Source: Verrucomicrobiales bacterium
GTDB taxonomy: Bacteria; Verrucomicrobiota; Verrucomicrobiia; Limisphaerales; UBA1100
Reading direction: 5' to 3'
Length of the DNA: 35,949 nt
Assembly (NCBI GenBank): GCA_005809105.1
Contig: SYLI01000009.1
Span: 1-35,949, forward strand
The notes beneath the pieces are model-generated. The model did no database searches. It was not told where the DNA came from and saw nothing but the letters and a program-made list of their open reading frames with translations. Positions 20,054 to 27,748 of this stretch are shown here, piece by piece. Position 1 is the stretch's first letter. Each line of letters starts with the position of its first letter. Position numbers and translations under genes: made by a program.

Positions 20054-20680
20054 TTAGCAGCCGCAGGCACGGTCGCCTGCGTCGCCCAGTCCCGGCACGA
20101 TGTAACCGCGCTCGTCCAGCTTGGAATCGACCGCCGCCACCACAATGCGCGATTGGGGGAAATGGCTGCTGAGCGTCCTCACCCCCGCCCTTGATGCGAT
20201 GACGTGGACAAAGCTGATGCTGCGCGCTCCGCGCTGGCGCAGCAATTCTCCGGCCGCCACGGCGCTGCCGGCGGTGGCCAGCATGGGATCGAGCACCAGC
20301 ACGTCAAAGCGCCCCAGCCGCGCGGGCACCCGGTCCAGATACCACTCGGGCTTGAGGGTGGACTCGTTGCGGGCCATGCCGATCATCCCTAGATGCGCCT
20401 CGGGCAGGAGCGGCCACAACGCGTCAACCATGGCCAGGCCGGCGCGCAGGATGGGCGCGAGCAGCACCGGATGACGCAGCGCCACCCCCGCGGCGGGCAT
20501 CAGGGGAGTGCGCACGCGCACCGGACGCAGCGAAAGGCCGGCCGTGGCCTCGTAGACGAGCGGCGCCGCAAGCCCGGCCATGAGACGGCGGAACTCCCCC
20601 GGCGAAGCGCGGCGGTCGCGCAGGCGGGTCAGTTTGGCCTGGACCACCGGGTGGCGGACGACGATGAGGTGATTTGACAC
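20054..20680 (-). CDS. upp: Uracil phosphoribosyltransferase
   Basis: 208 aa from GTG 20680, the start that gives the normal family length (208-209) and the standard opening VSNHLIVVRHPVVQAKLTRLRD. It makes UMP from uracil and PRPP. Motifs: FRRLMAGLAAPLVYEAT, PILRAGLAMVDALWPLLPEA, GMARNESTLKPEWYLDRVP, the PRPP loop VLVLDPMLATAGSAVAA and the uracil-binding VDSKLDERGYIVPGLGDAGDR near the end. The usual GxxRDExTxxP is GMARNESTLKP, a small variation. It is first in a minus-strand run with the M24 peptidase and divergent from nusA. A -10-like TACAAT lies on the minus strand at 20742-20737, with no good -35. Confidence 0.96.
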   Translation of the reverse strand: MSNHLIVVRHPVVQAKLTRLRDRRASPGEFRRLMAGLAAPLVYEATAGLSLRPVRVRTPLMPAAGVALRHPVLLAPILRAGLAMVDALWPLLPEAHLGMIGMARNESTLKPEWYLDRVPARLGRFDVLVLDPMLATAGSAVAAGELLRQRGARSISFVHVIASRAGVRTLSSHFPQSRIVVAAVDSKLDERGYIVPGLGDAGDRACGC

Positions 20681-20744
20681 GGGGCCGATGCGCGCAGCAT
20701 TGCACGCCACACGAAGGGGGCGCAAGGGGCTTTGGAATTGTACC

Positions 20745-20773
20745 TTGACGCTTCCTAGAGCACGACCTACGCT
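20745..20773 (+). promoter_or_regulatory. Promoter of the nusA-infB operon
   Basis: TTGACG (20745-20750), 17-base spacer, TACGCT (20768-20773). Transcription would begin near 20780, giving a leader of about 107 bases before nusA. This is the best -35/-10 pair in the 206-base divergent gap with upp. Confidence 0.6.
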
Positions 20774-20796
20774 CTCGCCAAGACAGGATGTGGCTG

Positions 20797-20810
20797 GTTC
20801 GCCAGCGTGG
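20797..20810 (+). other. Small TTCG-tetraloop hairpin in the nusA leader
   Basis: GCTGG - TTCG - CCAGC (within about 20793-20806, just upstream of the attenuator) forms a 5-bp stem closed by a UUCG-type tetraloop. Such loops are unusually stable in RNA. It could protect the leader or pause polymerase; position is approximate to a few bases. Confidence 0.35.
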
Positions 20811-20836
20811 AAAGTCGGAGCAGATCCGGCTTTTTT
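20811..20836 (+). terminator. Intrinsic terminator-like hairpin (possible attenuator) in the nusA leader
   Basis: GTCGGA (20814-20819), loop GCAGA, TCCGGC (20825-20830), then six T (20831-20836), preceded by AAA. The stem has one G-T pair. It lies between the nusA promoter and the nusA ATG, so it would cut transcription short unless overridden. A competing pairing exists: TCCGG (20825-20829) with CCGGA (20842-20846). Confidence 0.5.
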
Positions 20837-20886
20837 GTTCCCCGGAAGCGGGGACGCGCGCGAACCCCCGCACCCAGGGGCTAGCT

Positions 20887-22179
20887 ATGAATGTCGAGTT
20901 TTTGGCGGTTCTGGATCATTGGGAGAAGGAAAAGGGCATCAAGCGTGATGTCATGATCGCTGCTGTCAATGAGGCGCTGGTGACGGCCGCGAAAAAGGCC
21001 GTGGGCCCGGCCCGCGAGCTGCGCTGCGAGATTGACCCCAAGACGGGCGCCATCCATGCCATCGCCAAGCTGGTGGTGGCGGAACGGGTGCAGTCGCGCC
21101 ACGACGAGATTTCCAGGTTTGATGCCATGCGCCTCAAGGAAGACGCCAAGGTGGGCGACGAAATTGAGGTGGAAGTCACCCCCGCCAACTTCGGCCGAAT
21201 CGCCGCGCAGTTTGCCAAGCAGGCGCTCATGCAGCACGTGCGCAAGGCGGAAAAAAGCCTGATTTGGGATGAATTCAAGGACCGCGTTGGCGACATCGTG
21301 AGCGGGACGGTGCGCCGCTTCGAACGGTCGGACGTGAAGGTGGATCTGGGCCGCTACGAGGCGCTCTTGCCCAACCGCGAGCGCGTGCCCATTGAGGAAT
21401 ACCAGCTCGGTGAACGCATCCGCTGTTACGTCAAGGCCGTTGAGGAGACGCCTCACGGACCGGAAATCATCCTCTCTCGCGCAGCGCCCGAGTTTGTCAT
21501 CCGCCTCTTTCAACTGGAGGTGTCCGAGATCGCCGACCGCACGGTTGAAATCCGCGCCGTGGCCCGCGAGCCGGGCTTCCGCACCAAGCTGGCCGTCCAC
21601 TCGCGCGACAATCGGGTGGATCCGGTGGGGGCCTGCGTGGGGTTGCGCGGCCAGCGCGTGAAGAACATCGTCCGCGAGCTGAACAACGAGAAGGTGGACA
21701 TCATCCGCTGGGATCCGGACATCCAGGTTTACATCACCAACGCCCTGGCGCCCGCAAAGCTCAAGGCCTTCCAGATTGACGAGCGCACCAAGCGTGCGCG
21801 CATTCTCGTCAGCGAGGACCAGCTTTCGCTGGCCATCGGCAAACGCGGCCAGAACGCGCGGCTCACCGCCAAGCTCACCGGCTGGCAGGTGGACATCGAG
21901 GCCGAGGCGGTGAAGACGGTGACCTTTGACGATCAGGTGGCCCACGCCGTGTCGGCACTGATGGCCGTGCCCGGGCTGGATGACACCCTGGCGCGCGCAC
22001 TCGTCAGCAACGGATTCCATTCGCTGACTGACCTGCAGCAGGCCAGCGAGGAGGACCTCTCTGGAATCCCGGATGTTGCGGCTCATGCCGCCACGATCGT
22101 CGCCGCGGTGAAGGCCGAAACCGAGCGACGCGAATCCAGCACAGCCGTCGTCGCCAATGAACCCGCCGCGATGGGCTAG
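20887..22179 (+). CDS. nusA: Transcription termination/antitermination protein NusA
   Basis: 430 aa from ATG 20887. NusA binds RNA polymerase and nascent RNA and controls pausing, termination and antitermination. Domains: N-terminal RNAP-binding domain (1-130, FLAVLDHWEKEKGIKRDVMIAAVNEALVTAAKK region), S1 domain (about 135-200, GDIVSGTVRRFERSDVKVDLG), KH1/KH2 (about 200-345, DPVGACVGLRGQRVKNIVRELNNEKVDII and LSLAIGKRGQNARLTAKLTGW), and a single C-terminal helix-hairpin-helix region (about 370-425). It is the first gene of the translation operon; rimP, which usually precedes nusA, is absent and upp diverges instead. A terminator-like hairpin in the leader could let NusA regulate itself. Confidence 0.97.
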   Translation: MNVEFLAVLDHWEKEKGIKRDVMIAAVNEALVTAAKKAVGPARELRCEIDPKTGAIHAIAKLVVAERVQSRHDEISRFDAMRLKEDAKVGDEIEVEVTPANFGRIAAQFAKQALMQHVRKAEKSLIWDEFKDRVGDIVSGTVRRFERSDVKVDLGRYEALLPNRERVPIEEYQLGERIRCYVKAVEETPHGPEIILSRAAPEFVIRLFQLEVSEIADRTVEIRAVAREPGFRTKLAVHSRDNRVDPVGACVGLRGQRVKNIVRELNNEKVDIIRWDPDIQVYITNALAPAKLKAFQIDERTKRARILVSEDQLSLAIGKRGQNARLTAKLTGWQVDIEAEAVKTVTFDDQVAHAVSALMAVPGLDDTLARALVSNGFHSLTDLQQASEEDLSGIPDVAAHAATIVAAVKAETERRESSTAVVANEPAAMG

Positions 22180-22251: not shown

Positions 22252-24726
22252 ATGCCTGTAAGAATCTACGAAATCGCCAAGCGCCTGAACCTGGCGAACA
22301 AAGAGGTGTTGGACAAAGCCAAGGTGCTGGGCATCCAGCACGCCAAGGTCGCGTCTAGTTCGCTCGACAAGATCACTGCGGAGTTTCTCGAGCAGGAAAT
22401 CCTCAAGGAACTCAAACCCTCGGCGGCACCGGTTGTCGAGGCGCCCAAGCCGGTTGAACTCAGGCCGGTCATCATCATTGCGCCGCCAGAACCGGAGCCC
22501 GCTCCTCCCCCGCCGGAACCGGAGCCCTTGCCACCGGAGGAATTCCTCGAGCCTGTTCTGGCAGAGGCGACCGCGGCCGAGATTGTGGTGCCGGAAGTTC
22601 CCGCCCCTCCCGCATCACCTACATCTGCGGTTGCCTCCCCTGCAACCACTCCGCCCGCGGCCGCCATGCCGGTCGCCGCCGCGCCCGCGGCTCCCGCTCC
22701 TCCCCGCGTGGGAGAAAAGGTGGGCTTCATTGATTTGGGAGGGTTTGGAAAGCGCCCGCCACGGCGTGATGAACCGCGAAGAGATCCGCCCCGACGGACC
22801 GACATCCGCCCCGACCCTCGCGCCCCGCAACGGTCGGACCGCCCCACCCCAACGGGTCCCGGCGGTGCGGTCGCCAGGCCGGCAGCCCGCCCGACACCCA
22901 CCGAGCCGCGCATCCTGTTGCCGGCCGACGCGAAGATCATTTCCATCAAGCCCCCCATTGTCGTCCGTGAACTGGCTGAAAATCTGGGACGCAAACCCTT
23001 TCAACTCATCGCCGACCTGATGGGTCTGGGCGTCTTCGCCAATCTCAATCAGTCCATCGACGAGGGCATCACCGCCCGGCTGTGCGCCAAATACGGTTTC
23101 AAATTCGAGGCGCGCAAGCGCGACAAGGCGGCCAGCCCCAAGCCCCTGATTGAGAAGAAGGTCATCGAGACGGACAGCGGGGACGACCCCAAGCATCTCA
23201 AACTGCGCCCCCCCGTGGTCACCATCATGGGCCATGTGGACCACGGCAAGACCACGCTCCTCGACGCCATCCGCAAGACCAAGGTGGTGGAAGGCGAAGT
23301 CGGCGGCATCACCCAGCACATCGGCGCGTACACCGTCACCATCCCGCATCACACGCGCAAAAAGGAGATGTACCAGATCACCTTCCTGGACACTCCCGGC
23401 CACGCGGCCTTCAGCGCCATGCGCGCGCGCGGCGCCAACGTCACCGACATGGTGATCCTCGTGGTCGCCGCCAATGACGGCGTAATGCCCCAGACCCTCG
23501 AGGCCCTGAGCCACGCCCGGGAGGCCGGTGCGCAAATCATCGTGGCCGTCAACAAGTGCGATCATCCCAATGCCAATCCGCAGATGGCGCGCAAGCAGCT
23601 TCAGGAACACGGCCTGCTGTGCGAGGAATGGGGCGGCGAGGTGCAATTCGTCGACCTGTCGGCCCTGAAGAATCAGGGCCTGGACAAGCTCCTGGACTCC
23701 GTCCTCGTACAGGCCGAGGTGATGGAGCTTAAAGCCAATCCCACCCGCCGCGCCCAGGGCAATGTCATCGAATCAGGCATGGATCCGGGCGGCCCCATGG
23801 CCACGGTGCTGGTGCGCAAGGGCACGTTGCGCGTGGGCGATGCCATCATCTGCGGCCAGCACACGGGCAGAGTGCGCGCCATGATTGACGCCGATGGCAA
23901 CCGCCTCAAGGAAGCAGGCCCCTCCATCGCCGCCAAGGTACTGGGGCTTGACGGCGTGCCCGAGGCGGGCGACGAGTTCCATGCGGTGGAGGATGAGAAG
24001 GCGGCGCGCGAACTGGCCAGCGAGCGCGAGGCGCAGTCGCGCAAGGAATTCAACGAGGGGCGCGGCACGGGTGTCACGCTCGAGAACCTCTTTGCCACTC
24101 TCGACGCCGAGAGCGCCAAGGTCTTGAAGGTGATCATCAAGGCCGACACGCAGGGTTCCACCGAGGCCATCGTGAGCTCGCTGCGCAGCATCAAGTCCGA
24201 GAAGGTCAGCATGGAAGTCATCCATGCCGCCGTGGGCACCATCACCGAGTCGGACGTCAACCTTGCCTCCTCGGGCAAGGCCGTCGTGCTCGGGTTTCAC
24301 ACCAAGCCCGACAAGGGCGTGCAGGACTCTGCCAAGCACCACGGTGTGCAGATCAAGCTTTACAAAATCATCTACGAGCTCGTGGACGAAGTGAAGGCCG
24401 CGATGGCGGGCCTGCTCGACCCCGTGCTCAAGGAGGTCGTGATCGGCAGCGCCGACGTGCGGCAGCTCTTCACCCTTTCCAAAGGCAACACGATCGCAGG
24501 CTGCGCCGTGTCCAGCGGACGCATCGCGCGCGGCAAAGTGCGCGTCATGCGTCGCGGCAAAGAATTGCACAGCGGAACGGTCCACACGCTGCGGCGGTTC
24601 AAGGAAAACGTGGATGTGGTTCGCGCCGGCATGGAATGCGGCATCGGCCTCTCAGGGTTTGACACCTTCGAGGTCGGCGATGTCATCGAAAGCTGCGTGA
24701 CGGAGAAAGTCGCGCAGGAACTCTAA
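22252..24726 (+). CDS. infB: Translation initiation factor IF-2
   Basis: 824 aa from ATG 22252 ([27 protein letters not shown], the IF2N domain). A Pro/Ala/Glu-rich linker (about 70-160) and an Arg/Pro-rich stretch follow, then a second IF2N-type domain (about 230-300, [24 protein letters not shown]). GTPase motifs: G1 GHVDHGKTT (327-335), G3 DTPGH (380-384), G4 NKCD (434-437; Cys in place of the usual variable residue). Domains II, III and C2 follow, the last with [21 protein letters not shown], binding fMet-tRNA. IF-2 brings initiator tRNA to the 30S subunit and promotes subunit joining. A ylxR-type gene is not found between nusA and infB; the 72-base gap shows only an 11-codon frame. Confidence 0.98.
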
Positions 24727-24736
24727 AGGCCCGCCC

Positions 24737-25096
24737 ATGCCGCCGCTGCGTCAGGAACGCGTCCGCGAACTCATCAAGCGTGCGTTGAGCGAAATCCTGC
24801 GCCGCGAGGTGGATGTCCAGACGTATGGGATGATGACCATCCACGACGTGGGTCTGGCGCGCGACATGCACTCGGCCGTGGTCTACGTGGGCATCCTCGG
24901 AGGAGAAACGCAGCGCCGTCAGGGGGCGGAATACTTGAGCCAGAACCGCGGACGCCTTCAGTCGCTTTGTGGCAAGGAGGTGAACCTCAAGTACACGCCC
25001 ATCCTCCAGTTCAAGGTGGACGACTCTGTCGAGCGCGGCAATCGCGTGATGGACATTCTCGATCAGCTGGGGGATCAAGGGGAGCCGGCCCCATGA
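24737..25096 (+). CDS. rbfA: Ribosome-binding factor A
   Basis: 119 aa from ATG 24737, ten bases after infB. RbfA is a single KH-like-domain protein that binds the 30S subunit and assists 16S rRNA 5'-end maturation. The start RQERVRELIKRALSEILRREV, the central MMTIHDVGLARDMHSAVVYVGILG and LKYTPILQFKVDDSVERGNRVMDILDQL are all diagnostic. Its stop overlaps the next ATG by four bases. Confidence 0.96.
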   Translation: MPPLRQERVRELIKRALSEILRREVDVQTYGMMTIHDVGLARDMHSAVVYVGILGGETQRRQGAEYLSQNRGRLQSLCGKEVNLKYTPILQFKVDDSVERGNRVMDILDQLGDQGEPAP

Positions 25097-26079
25097 CACG
25101 CCGCCTTCAGATCATCTCGCGCATCCTTGAGGCCGTGTCCCAATCGCGCTCCATCTGTATTGTGGGGCATGGGCGCCCAGACGGCGACTGCATCGGTTCG
25201 CAAATCGCGCTGACCCTCGCGTTGCGCGGCCAGGGTCGGCGCGTGCAGTGCTGGAATCAGGACCCCGTGCCCGGCAAGCTCAAGTTTCTGGATCCGGACG
25301 GGGTGGTGACCATGCCCGTCGCCTCGGTGCGGCTGGACTGCGTCATCGCCGTGGACTGCGCCAGCTACGAGCGCCTTGGCGATCTGTGCGCGCGTCTGGA
25401 GAGGCGGCGGCTGCTCATCAACATCGATCACCACGCCTCCAATCACCGCTTCGGCGATCTGAACTGGGTCGTCCCACGAAGCCCCTCCACGGGCGAGCTC
25501 ATCCACCGGCTGCTGCGGCAGGCGCAGTGGCCCATCACGCCGGACATCGCCAACGCGCTCCTCACGGCCATCAGCACCGACACGGGTTCCTTTCAGTATC
25601 CCAGCACGCGCCCGTCCACGCACCGCACCGCTGCCGAGCTGCTCACGCGGGGCGCCGACTCCGCGCGCATCTGCCAGGAGGTGTATCAGAGCTATCCCCT
25701 CGGGCGCGTGCGGCTGCTGCGGCACCTGTACAACCGCTTCAAGCTGCGGCATCACAACCAGATTGGCTCCTTCTGGCTGCGCCGTCGCGACTACACGCTG
25801 ACCGGCGCCAAGCCGGATGATGCCGAGGGCCTCATCGAGCAAATCCGGGACATTGGGTCGGTGCGCGTGGCGTGCCTCTTTGAGGAACTGGAGCCGGGAC
25901 TGACGCGCCTGAGCCTGCGCAGCAAGACTCCCGCCGTCAACGTGGCCGACGTGGCCGCGCAGTTTGGCGGCGGCGGCCACGGCGCTGCCGCGGGAGCCCG
26001 CATCCCCGGCGACGCCCGGAAGGTTGAGCGCCTCGTGCTCGACGCCCTCAAGGCCGCCCTCAACGGCCACCAACATTAG
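25093..26079 (+). CDS. nrnA: DHH/DHHA1 nanoRNase / pAp phosphatase (NrnA)
   Basis: 328 aa; ATG 25093 overlaps rbfA (ATGA). NrnA degrades 2-5 nt RNA oligos and dephosphorylates 3'-phosphoadenosine 5'-phosphate. The DHH domain has GHGRPDGDCIGSQ (motif I), AVDCASYERLG (motif II), INIDHHASNHRFGDLNW (DHH) and the TAISTDTGSFQYPST block; the DHHA1 domain ends in VNVADVAAQFGGGGHGAAAGARI (GGGGH). Metal-binding residues are intact. In motif I the usual His/Asn near the start is Gly-His-Gly, a minor change. The position between rbfA and truB is the conserved one for this gene. Confidence 0.95.
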   Translation: MTRRLQIISRILEAVSQSRSICIVGHGRPDGDCIGSQIALTLALRGQGRRVQCWNQDPVPGKLKFLDPDGVVTMPVASVRLDCVIAVDCASYERLGDLCARLERRRLLINIDHHASNHRFGDLNWVVPRSPSTGELIHRLLRQAQWPITPDIANALLTAISTDTGSFQYPSTRPSTHRTAAELLTRGADSARICQEVYQSYPLGRVRLLRHLYNRFKLRHHNQIGSFWLRRRDYTLTGAKPDDAEGLIEQIRDIGSVRVACLFEELEPGLTRLSLRSKTPAVNVADVAAQFGGGGHGAAAGARIPGDARKVERLVLDALKAALNGHQH

Positions 26080-26087
26080 TCCCTTGT

Positions 26088-26813
26088 ATGCCCCGCCCTC
26101 CTGCCTTTGACGGCGCGCTGTTGGTGGACAAGCCGGCCGGCCCCACTTCGCATGACGTGGTGGACAGCGTCCGCGACCTCTACCGGATGCAGCAGGTCGG
26201 CCACTGCGGCACACTCGACCCCGGCGCCACGGGCCTGCTGGTTCTGCTGCTGGGGCGCGCCACCAAGCTCTCCAGCCGATTCATGGCCGACGACAAAGCC
26301 TACGAAGGGGTCATCCAGCTTGGGCTGACCACCGACAGCCACGACGCGCATGGGCAGGTCACGGCCAGGACGGCTGTGCCGCCGCTCACGCTGGACAAAC
26401 TCAACGCGGCGGCGCGAGAGTTCACCGGAGACCTGATGCAGCTTCCCCCCATGGTCTCCGCCGTCAAAAAGGGCGGCACGCCGCTCTACAAGCTGGCGCG
26501 CAAGGGGCAGCAGGTCGAGCGCGAGGCGAGGCTGGTCCACGTGTACCAGTTCGAGTTTAGCGGCTATCAGGCGCCACTGGGGCGGTTTCGAGTGGCCTGC
26601 ACCAAGGGCGGCTACGTGAGATCCCTGGCGCACGATCTGGGCCAGCGGCTGGGCTGCGGCGCCATCCTTAAACACCTTCATCGCACGCGCTCCGGATCCT
26701 TTGAGGTACACGAGGCTCTCCGGCTCGAGGCCCTCCTTGAAACACCCGACGCCCAGCTGCCCGGCTTGGTGGTGCCGCTCATGGACTTGGCGCCGCGGCT
26801 CAAGTCGGCATGA
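26088..26813 (+). CDS. truB: tRNA pseudouridine(55) synthase
   Basis: 241 aa from ATG 26088, eight bases after nrnA. TruB makes pseudouridine 55 in the T-loop of tRNAs. Motifs: DGALLVDKPAGPTSHDVVD, then VGHCGTLDPGATGLLVLLLGRATKLS, where the Asp is catalytic, YEGVIQLGLTTDSHDAHG, LPPMVSAVKKGGTPLYKLARKG and YVRSLAHDLGQRLG. The C-terminus lacks a PUA domain, fitting the shorter type of about 240 residues. ATGA overlap with ribF. Confidence 0.96.
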   Translation: MPRPPAFDGALLVDKPAGPTSHDVVDSVRDLYRMQQVGHCGTLDPGATGLLVLLLGRATKLSSRFMADDKAYEGVIQLGLTTDSHDAHGQVTARTAVPPLTLDKLNAAAREFTGDLMQLPPMVSAVKKGGTPLYKLARKGQQVEREARLVHVYQFEFSGYQAPLGRFRVACTKGGYVRSLAHDLGQRLGCGAILKHLHRTRSGSFEVHEALRLEALLETPDAQLPGLVVPLMDLAPRLKSA

Positions 26814-27748
26814 GGATTTTCAAAAACGCGCCCGAGGCGCGATCGCCCTCGGGCAGGGTGGCTAGGGTGGCAATTGCCATCGGCCTCTTCGACGGCGTGC
26901 ATCTGGGCCACCAGCAGGTGCTGCGGCAGACCGTGGCCGACGCGCGCAACCACGAGGCGATGGCAATCGCCGTCACGTTCGACCGCCATCCGGCGGCCGT
27001 GCTTTCCCCGCAGTCGGCGCCGCTTTTGATTCAGTCCGACGCGCAGCGACTGCGAACCATCGCCGCGCTTGGAATCGACGCAGCGCTGGTGCTGGAGTTT
27101 GATGAGGCCTTGAGCCGCGTGAGCGCAGAGGCGTTCCTCCAACAGTTACTTGAACCACTGGGCCGGTGCGTGAGTGTCTGTGTGGGGGCGCGCTTTGCCT
27201 TTGGACACGGGCGCGCCGGAAACGTGGCGCTGCTCAATCAATGGGGCGACCGGATGGGCTTTGCCGTCCACGGCCTTGCCAATGTGGCGCTGGACGGCGA
27301 GCCGGTGAGCAGCTCGCGCATACGTCAGGCAATCACCTCGGGCGACTTGGATGCGGCTGACCAGATGCTGGGCCGCGCCTACACTCTGGCGGGAACGGTG
27401 GTGGCGGGCGACCGCCGTGGACGCGAATGGGGATTTCCAACCGCCAATCTGGACGTGGCCGGGCTTTGCCTGCCGCCCTCGGGGGTCTATGCCGCGCATG
27501 CGCAGGTGGCGGGCCGGACGCACCGCGCGGTCGTCAACATCGGGATCCGGCCCACGCTCGGCGGCATCGCTCCAACGGTGCGCGTGGAAGCCCACCTGCT
27601 CGACGTCACGGGCGATTTTTACGGACAGGAGGTTGAACTTTCATTTGTAAAGCGGTTGCGAGACGAGGCGCGGTTTGAAAACGTGGACGCACTCTGCGCG
27701 CAGATTTCCCGCGATGTGCAGGCGGCGCGCGCGGCGTTTGAAGACTGA
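26810..27748 (+). CDS. ribF: Bifunctional riboflavin kinase / FAD synthetase
   Basis: 312 aa; ATG 26810 overlaps truB by four bases. RibF phosphorylates riboflavin to FMN and adenylylates FMN to FAD. The N-terminal nucleotidyltransferase domain has AIGLFDGVHLGHQQVLRQ, TFDRHPAAVLSP and VSSSRIRQAITSGDLDAADQMLGR. The C-terminal kinase domain begins at about residue 185 with VVAGDRRGREWGFPTANL, then PPSGVYAAHAQV, VNIGIRPTLGG and VEAHLLDVTGDFYGQEVELSFVKRLRDEARF. It is the final gene of the nusA operon. Confidence 0.96.
   Translation: MRIFKNAPEARSPSGRVARVAIAIGLFDGVHLGHQQVLRQTVADARNHEAMAIAVTFDRHPAAVLSPQSAPLLIQSDAQRLRTIAALGIDAALVLEFDEALSRVSAEAFLQQLLEPLGRCVSVCVGARFAFGHGRAGNVALLNQWGDRMGFAVHGLANVALDGEPVSSSRIRQAITSGDLDAADQMLGRAYTLAGTVVAGDRRGREWGFPTANLDVAGLCLPPSGVYAAHAQVAGRTHRAVVNIGIRPTLGGIAPTVRVEAHLLDVTGDFYGQEVELSFVKRLRDEARFENVDALCAQISRDVQAARAAFED

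Follow-up and report, generated by a model that had tools for sequence, protein, structure and literature searches.

The nusA gene of this Verrucomicrobiales bacterium is separated from its promoter by a hairpin and a run of T, and the question raised is whether such a leader controls the operon and, if so, what reads it. Mondal et al. are said to have described attenuation by NusA in B. subtilis in 2016. The rimP-leader was the most widespread attenuator found by Naville and Gautheret in 2010, who favoured NusA over RimP as its sensor without settling the matter (PMC2965389, in excerpt). In B. subtilis, NusA limits its own synthesis by stimulating termination in the leader of its gene (PMC12288461), NusA feedback has also been published for E. 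coli, and the leader of the Streptococcus agalactiae rimP-nusA operon yields a terminated RNA, with termination 31 nt after the start (PMC4448216). The window analyzed here is the whole 35,949-nt stretch of contig SYLI01000009.1 (GCA_005809105.1, forward strand). An original prediction placed an attenuator ahead of nusA-infB-rbfA-nrnA-truB-ribF, through which the level of NusA would set expression of the operon. An attenuator at this place is supported by how the leader is built, by its conservation, and by the Pfam names of the six genes, and NusA as its effector has indirect support.

Results

The hairpins and the promoter of this leader are real (Table 1). As originally predicted, a promoter stands upstream of the terminator-type hairpin P2, agreeing by eye with the consensus at five of six positions in the -35 and three of six in the -10 element, and a UUCG hairpin, P1, precedes P2. 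The six T that had been noted after the stem are present, while the stem itself, first read as 6 bp, comprises nine: six base pairs and three basal A-U pairs, with one of the nine being U-G. Folded alone, P2 had -11.1 kcal/mol and a z of -3.5. A scan of the window sequence listed neither the promoter nor P2, the latter probably missed because its stem runs into the T run. In the window the leader is followed by nusA with no gene in between. The upstream gene upp (uracil phosphoribosyltransferase, 20054-20725) is divergent from nusA, so that there is no upstream transcript on the + strand for P2 to end, and a role as terminator of an upstream gene is ruled out. A further CCCC..GGGG hairpin at 20866-20883 could mask AGGGG ahead of the nusA start; it had a z of -0.13, was absent in the nearest relative (L049), and is probably due to chance. 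At the protein level L002, an assembly of a Lake Baikal Pedosphaera sp., is the nearest named relative (85% identity).

Table 1. Leader and operon features in the window; A2 is the model-fitted alignment described in the text.
Feature	Position	Strand	Details and basis
Sigma-70-type promoter	20745-20773	+	-35 TTGACG 20745-20750, 17-nt spacer, -10 TACGCT 20768-20773; window sequence and conserved spacing
Predicted transcription start	20780	+	From promoter, ~7 nt past -10
Hairpin P1, GCUGG UUCG CCAGC	20793-20806	+	Fold; 5/5 pairs changed on both sides in A2
Terminator-type hairpin P2, AAAGUCGGA gcaga UCCGGCUUU	20811-20833	+	9 bp, loop 20820-20824; fold; near-invariant stem in order
T6 tract	20831-20836	+	Invariant in 38/38; as non-template TTNTTT, predicted NusG-type pause at 20841, from geometry in excerpts of PMC12288461 and PMC8060035
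Conserved (G/A)UUC after T tract	20837-20842	+	TTC invariant in 38; predicted short-leader 3' end region
Hairpin P3, UCCCCG GAAG CGGGGA	20839-20854	+	Fold; 4/5 pairs changed on both sides; predicted in read-through RNA only
nusA	20887-22179	+	430 aa, first gene of operon; open reading frame, Pfam
infB, rbfA, DHH/nrnA-like, truB, ribF	22252-27748	+	Downstream of nusA; Pfam

Conservation is the strong argument that the leader is not a product of chance. Similarity searches with NusA gave 63 loci (L001-L063), seven of which (L040-L046) ended before the nusA start, and all 56 loci with a mapped start, found by NusA similarity alone, carried AGTCGG..CCGRC followed by T6 and (G/A)TTC. Twenty columns were invariant across 38 dereplicated relatives. 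R1, a covariance model built from these 38, had matches in 212 of the order's 245 genomes, and among the better genomes in 123 of 128; NusA protein was present in 224 of the 245. In a set where L092-L121 had been fetched because R1 matched and L182-L211 chosen mostly for a weak or missing R1 match, 133 nusA starts were mapped order-wide, 113 of them distinct, and the leader was present in 112 of the 113. The stem regex fitted 106 distinct leaders, five others had a bulge or shift as judged by eye (L192, L193, L194, L201, and L224), and in L182 the leader lay about 250 nt upstream of nusA with a tandem repeat between, leaving L211, whose NusA-like match is diverged, as the only one of the 113 without the element. 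The repeat in L182 (G587:C18, ~1300-1500) consists of about ten copies of a ~17-bp unit between leader and start codon. The L211 match (G588) has 38% identity and may represent a paralogue, a contaminant, or a fragment. Within the family, the exact motif occurred once per genome, always at nusA, in 16 of 20 genomes, the remaining four assemblies being without nusA. Among matched order copies, TTTTTTGTT stood 3' of the T tract in 77 of 101 and TTTTTTATT in 19 of 101. Outside the order, R1 matched 18 loci in 17 more genomes at E ≤0.01, and only L080 and L091 adjoin nusA; the other loci were taken as chance matches, so that R1 is largely specific to the order.

Two observations on gene copies were made alongside. 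In L188 (G554:C37, ~131507-132268) a promoter, a P2-type leader, and a 162-aa frame with only the NusA N-terminal domain stand directly ahead of another promoter, another leader, and a full nusA, a tandem duplication seen in one assembly only. Many phylum-sample genomes, several from family f6 and others, had two NusA matches per genome, which may be split genes or paralogues.

The promoter keeps its distance as well. TTGAC was positioned 66-82 nt ahead of the P2 stem in 103 of 107 order leaders, 90-91 nt ahead in three, and was absent in one, and in other families it lay 54-84 nt from the hairpin in 37 of 42. With this nearly fixed distance, RNA polymerase would meet the hairpin soon after leaving the promoter. 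A transcription start downstream of 20836, named in the original prediction as grounds for giving it up, is thus unlikely, given a TTGAC kept 66-91 nt before the stem in 106 of 107.

Covariation in related genomes, which had been proposed as a check, was detected in P1 and P3, whereas the P2 stem GUCGG/CCGRC hardly varied within the order. In A2, an alignment of 98 rows (97 distinct) that is fitted to the model and so leans towards its structure, 74.1% of P3 cells were paired, and 66 cells were changed on both sides, where shuffling gave 14.1 and sliding no more than 26, a count in which four antiparallel partial matches from the palindromic P2 were kept. In the unfitted alignment, A1, the corresponding numbers were 11, 2.2, and at most 9.

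The competing pairing of the original prediction fared less well. TCCGG (20825-20829) and CCGGA (20842-20846) are complementary in the window, as had been said, but as a switch the pairing found no backing among relatives, where the 52.6% of cells that pair does not exceed the value after a slide of 3 columns. When 107 order leaders were folded up to the T tract, the P2 stem reached a pairing probability of at least 0.9 in 106, with L185 the lone exception; in full leaders it did so in 104 of 107, and no antiterminator was predicted. Because P2 forms by default with no conserved competing fold, control must come from a factor, and a terminator that such a factor stimulates, with no switch in the RNA, is a better fit than a switch by competing pairing. 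In the minimum free energy fold of the full leader, P1 and downstream bases paired differently while P2 was kept, which we counted against attenuation.

A related hairpin was found in other families of the phylum. Sixty nusA upstream regions outside the order were hand-picked from the listed NusA matches and spread over families, with weaker matches such as those of genus g8 left out; 42 of the 60 had GYGGG..CCYRC and a T tract, typically AGAGUGGG..CCCACUCU (AGUGGG..CCCACU), and by eye seven more had a related hairpin and 11 had none, the last also counted against attenuation. Between the order and these families P2 covaried. The third pair from the loop was C-G in 101 of 101 order copies vs. 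G-C in 41 of 42 copies from the other families, plus one G-U, and the seventh P2 pair was A-U in 89 of 101 vs. G-C in 31 of 42. The C-G form occurred in none of the 60 outside regions and the G-C form in none of the order set, counts which, with classes defined by regexes, mean that no mixed case was seen rather than that none exists.

A profile search for RimP_N with PF02576 as the only profile, which would miss a very divergent RimP, found it in none of 20 family genomes and none of 387 sampled phylum genomes, with matches in 10 of 14 control genomes. RimP is therefore unlikely to be the effector.

Discussion

The nearest likeness of this element is to the rimP-leader (PMC2965389), with which it shares a single terminator hairpin and T tract in the leader of a nusA-infB operon, a strongly conserved stem, no antiterminator in the excerpted description there and none visible here, and a position within the 4-130 nt from terminator to gene start given for that leader (50 nt in the window). 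The differences are that rimP is missing from the window, where the hairpin directly precedes nusA, that helices P1 and P3 are extra, and that the GGGc..gCCC of the published stem is replaced by GUCGG/CCGRC in the window and the order (101 of 101 matched copies). As the GGG..CCC core in 42 of 60 regions from other families is the published signature, the window element is best seen, judging from sequence, as a clade-specific variant of the rimP-leader in which G-C became C-G throughout one order, a second pair (G-C to A-U) having mostly changed too. The Gammaproteobacteria rimP leader of Rfam, RF01770, is alike in its place and presumed role, and UUUUUUGUU likewise comes after the first E. coli terminator, but RF01770 has tandem terminators with a potential antiterminator, according to the excerpted text of PMC2965389. 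Searches of Rfam release 15 gave no match in the window at gathering score (47 bits for RF01770), and RF01770 was not matched at the leader up to E 5 or around the genomic nusA up to E 10; only the chance-level asX2 (E 0.46) and AgrB (E 3.5) appeared, and the element was assigned to no family. The 5' end, which reads GAACGGUAAAG in some relatives, resembles the NusA-binding RNA of M. tuberculosis, but this likeness was dropped, as that stretch is only ~30-60% conserved.

Taken together, the leader is probably an attenuator stimulated by NusA, perhaps by NusA and NusG. NusA-stimulated termination in the gene's own leader is the mechanism worked out for B. subtilis (PMC12288461), experimentally there and by prediction here, and B. 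subtilis has rimP, as its RimP_N match as a control showed. If RimP is truly missing it cannot be the sensor in these bacteria, and NusA is the best candidate effector. Under this proposal RNA polymerase would start at about 20780 and meet a weak intrinsic terminator some 50-60 nt on. With polymerase paused on T6-GTTC, P2 would close in the exit channel, the G-C core first and the three basal A-U pairs next. NusA, which binds once sigma is released (PMC12288461), and perhaps NusG on the T tract would stabilize P2, releasing a short leader RNA predicted at about 57-63 nt. Scarcity of NusA would allow read-through into nusA-infB-rbfA-nrnA-truB-ribF, and no antiterminator RNA would be required. 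NusA/NusG-dependent terminators are marked by A-U pairs at the end of the stem and by a U tract that is interrupted (PMC8060035). The leader also resembles the NusG-dependent pauses and terminators of B. subtilis (PMC8060035, PMC12288461) in the weak A-U pairs at its stem base, in its interrupted U tract, and in its TTNTTT, which falls at -11 to -6; NusG dependence is only predicted from this, with the caution that T6 is also expected of any terminator.

The near-invariance of the stem suggests that something reads it, which a plain weak terminator would not need, and we counted this too against attenuation. It is possible, though proposed only tentatively, that the leader acts as a timer of NusA loading, i.e. 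that a weak terminator is set ~30-60 nt from the start, where NusA replaces sigma, so that read-through would measure free NusA (and NusG). In that case one order's exchange of an otherwise steady G-C for C-G would mean that recognition there depends on the hairpin and not on which base it carries.

Less likely, the element could be a NusA/NusG-dependent pause rather than a terminator, the hairpin and TTNTTT holding polymerase at ~20841 for ribosomes, NusA, or folding, with P3 and the start codon coming next. Relative to 20841, the T6 does read as TTNTTT at -11 to -6 and the last G-C pair of the stem lies 11 nt upstream, a distance given for NusG pauses (PMC12288461, PMC8060035), and the T tract of order leaders ends 23-72 nt from the ATG with a mode near 31. 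Closing of the three basal A-U pairs, however, would leave 7-9 nt between the hairpin and 20840-20842, which is the termination geometry stated in the same excerpts, and the Streptococcus leader yields a terminated RNA; by this arithmetic a pause geometry would be followed by one for termination. An attenuator answering to a different effector, such as another operon product (IF2, RbfA, etc.) or a general signal like transcription rate, is rather improbable: the motif precedes the whole operon and its near-invariant stem is without a known reader, but NusA is itself a termination factor and has published feedback in B. subtilis and E. coli.

There is very little to recommend a DNA operator for a repressor, even though the GTCGG..CCGAC inverted repeat sits just below the promoter. 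The P2 loop, and with it the spacing of the half-sites, varied from 7 to 17 nt among order copies, and one P2 pair was U-A in 58 of 101 and U-G in 43 of 101 (T-G for T-A in DNA terms), which argue for an RNA hairpin; the T tract is invariant and the two flanking RNA helices covary. An N-terminal extension of nusA from an ATG at 20788, by which conservation would be that of coding sequence, is refuted, since the frame is open through 20886 in the window but in only 37 of 106 relatives, and leader length varies.

A literature search conducted mostly without subscription papers found no published description of this leader. Such an arrangement is known from other bacteria, but in this phylum it is kept where rimP was not found and has a pair swapped across one order. 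A covariance model now exists for a leader unmatched by Rfam release 15, in a phylum with little transcription data. In L188, where an N-terminal domain of NusA would stand alone behind a leader of this type, there would be a natural test of feedback, and the clade-wide pair swap offers a ready-made test of what the protein or polymerase reads. Persistence of the element immediately ahead of nusA in a phylum with no detectable RimP speaks against RimP as its sensor.
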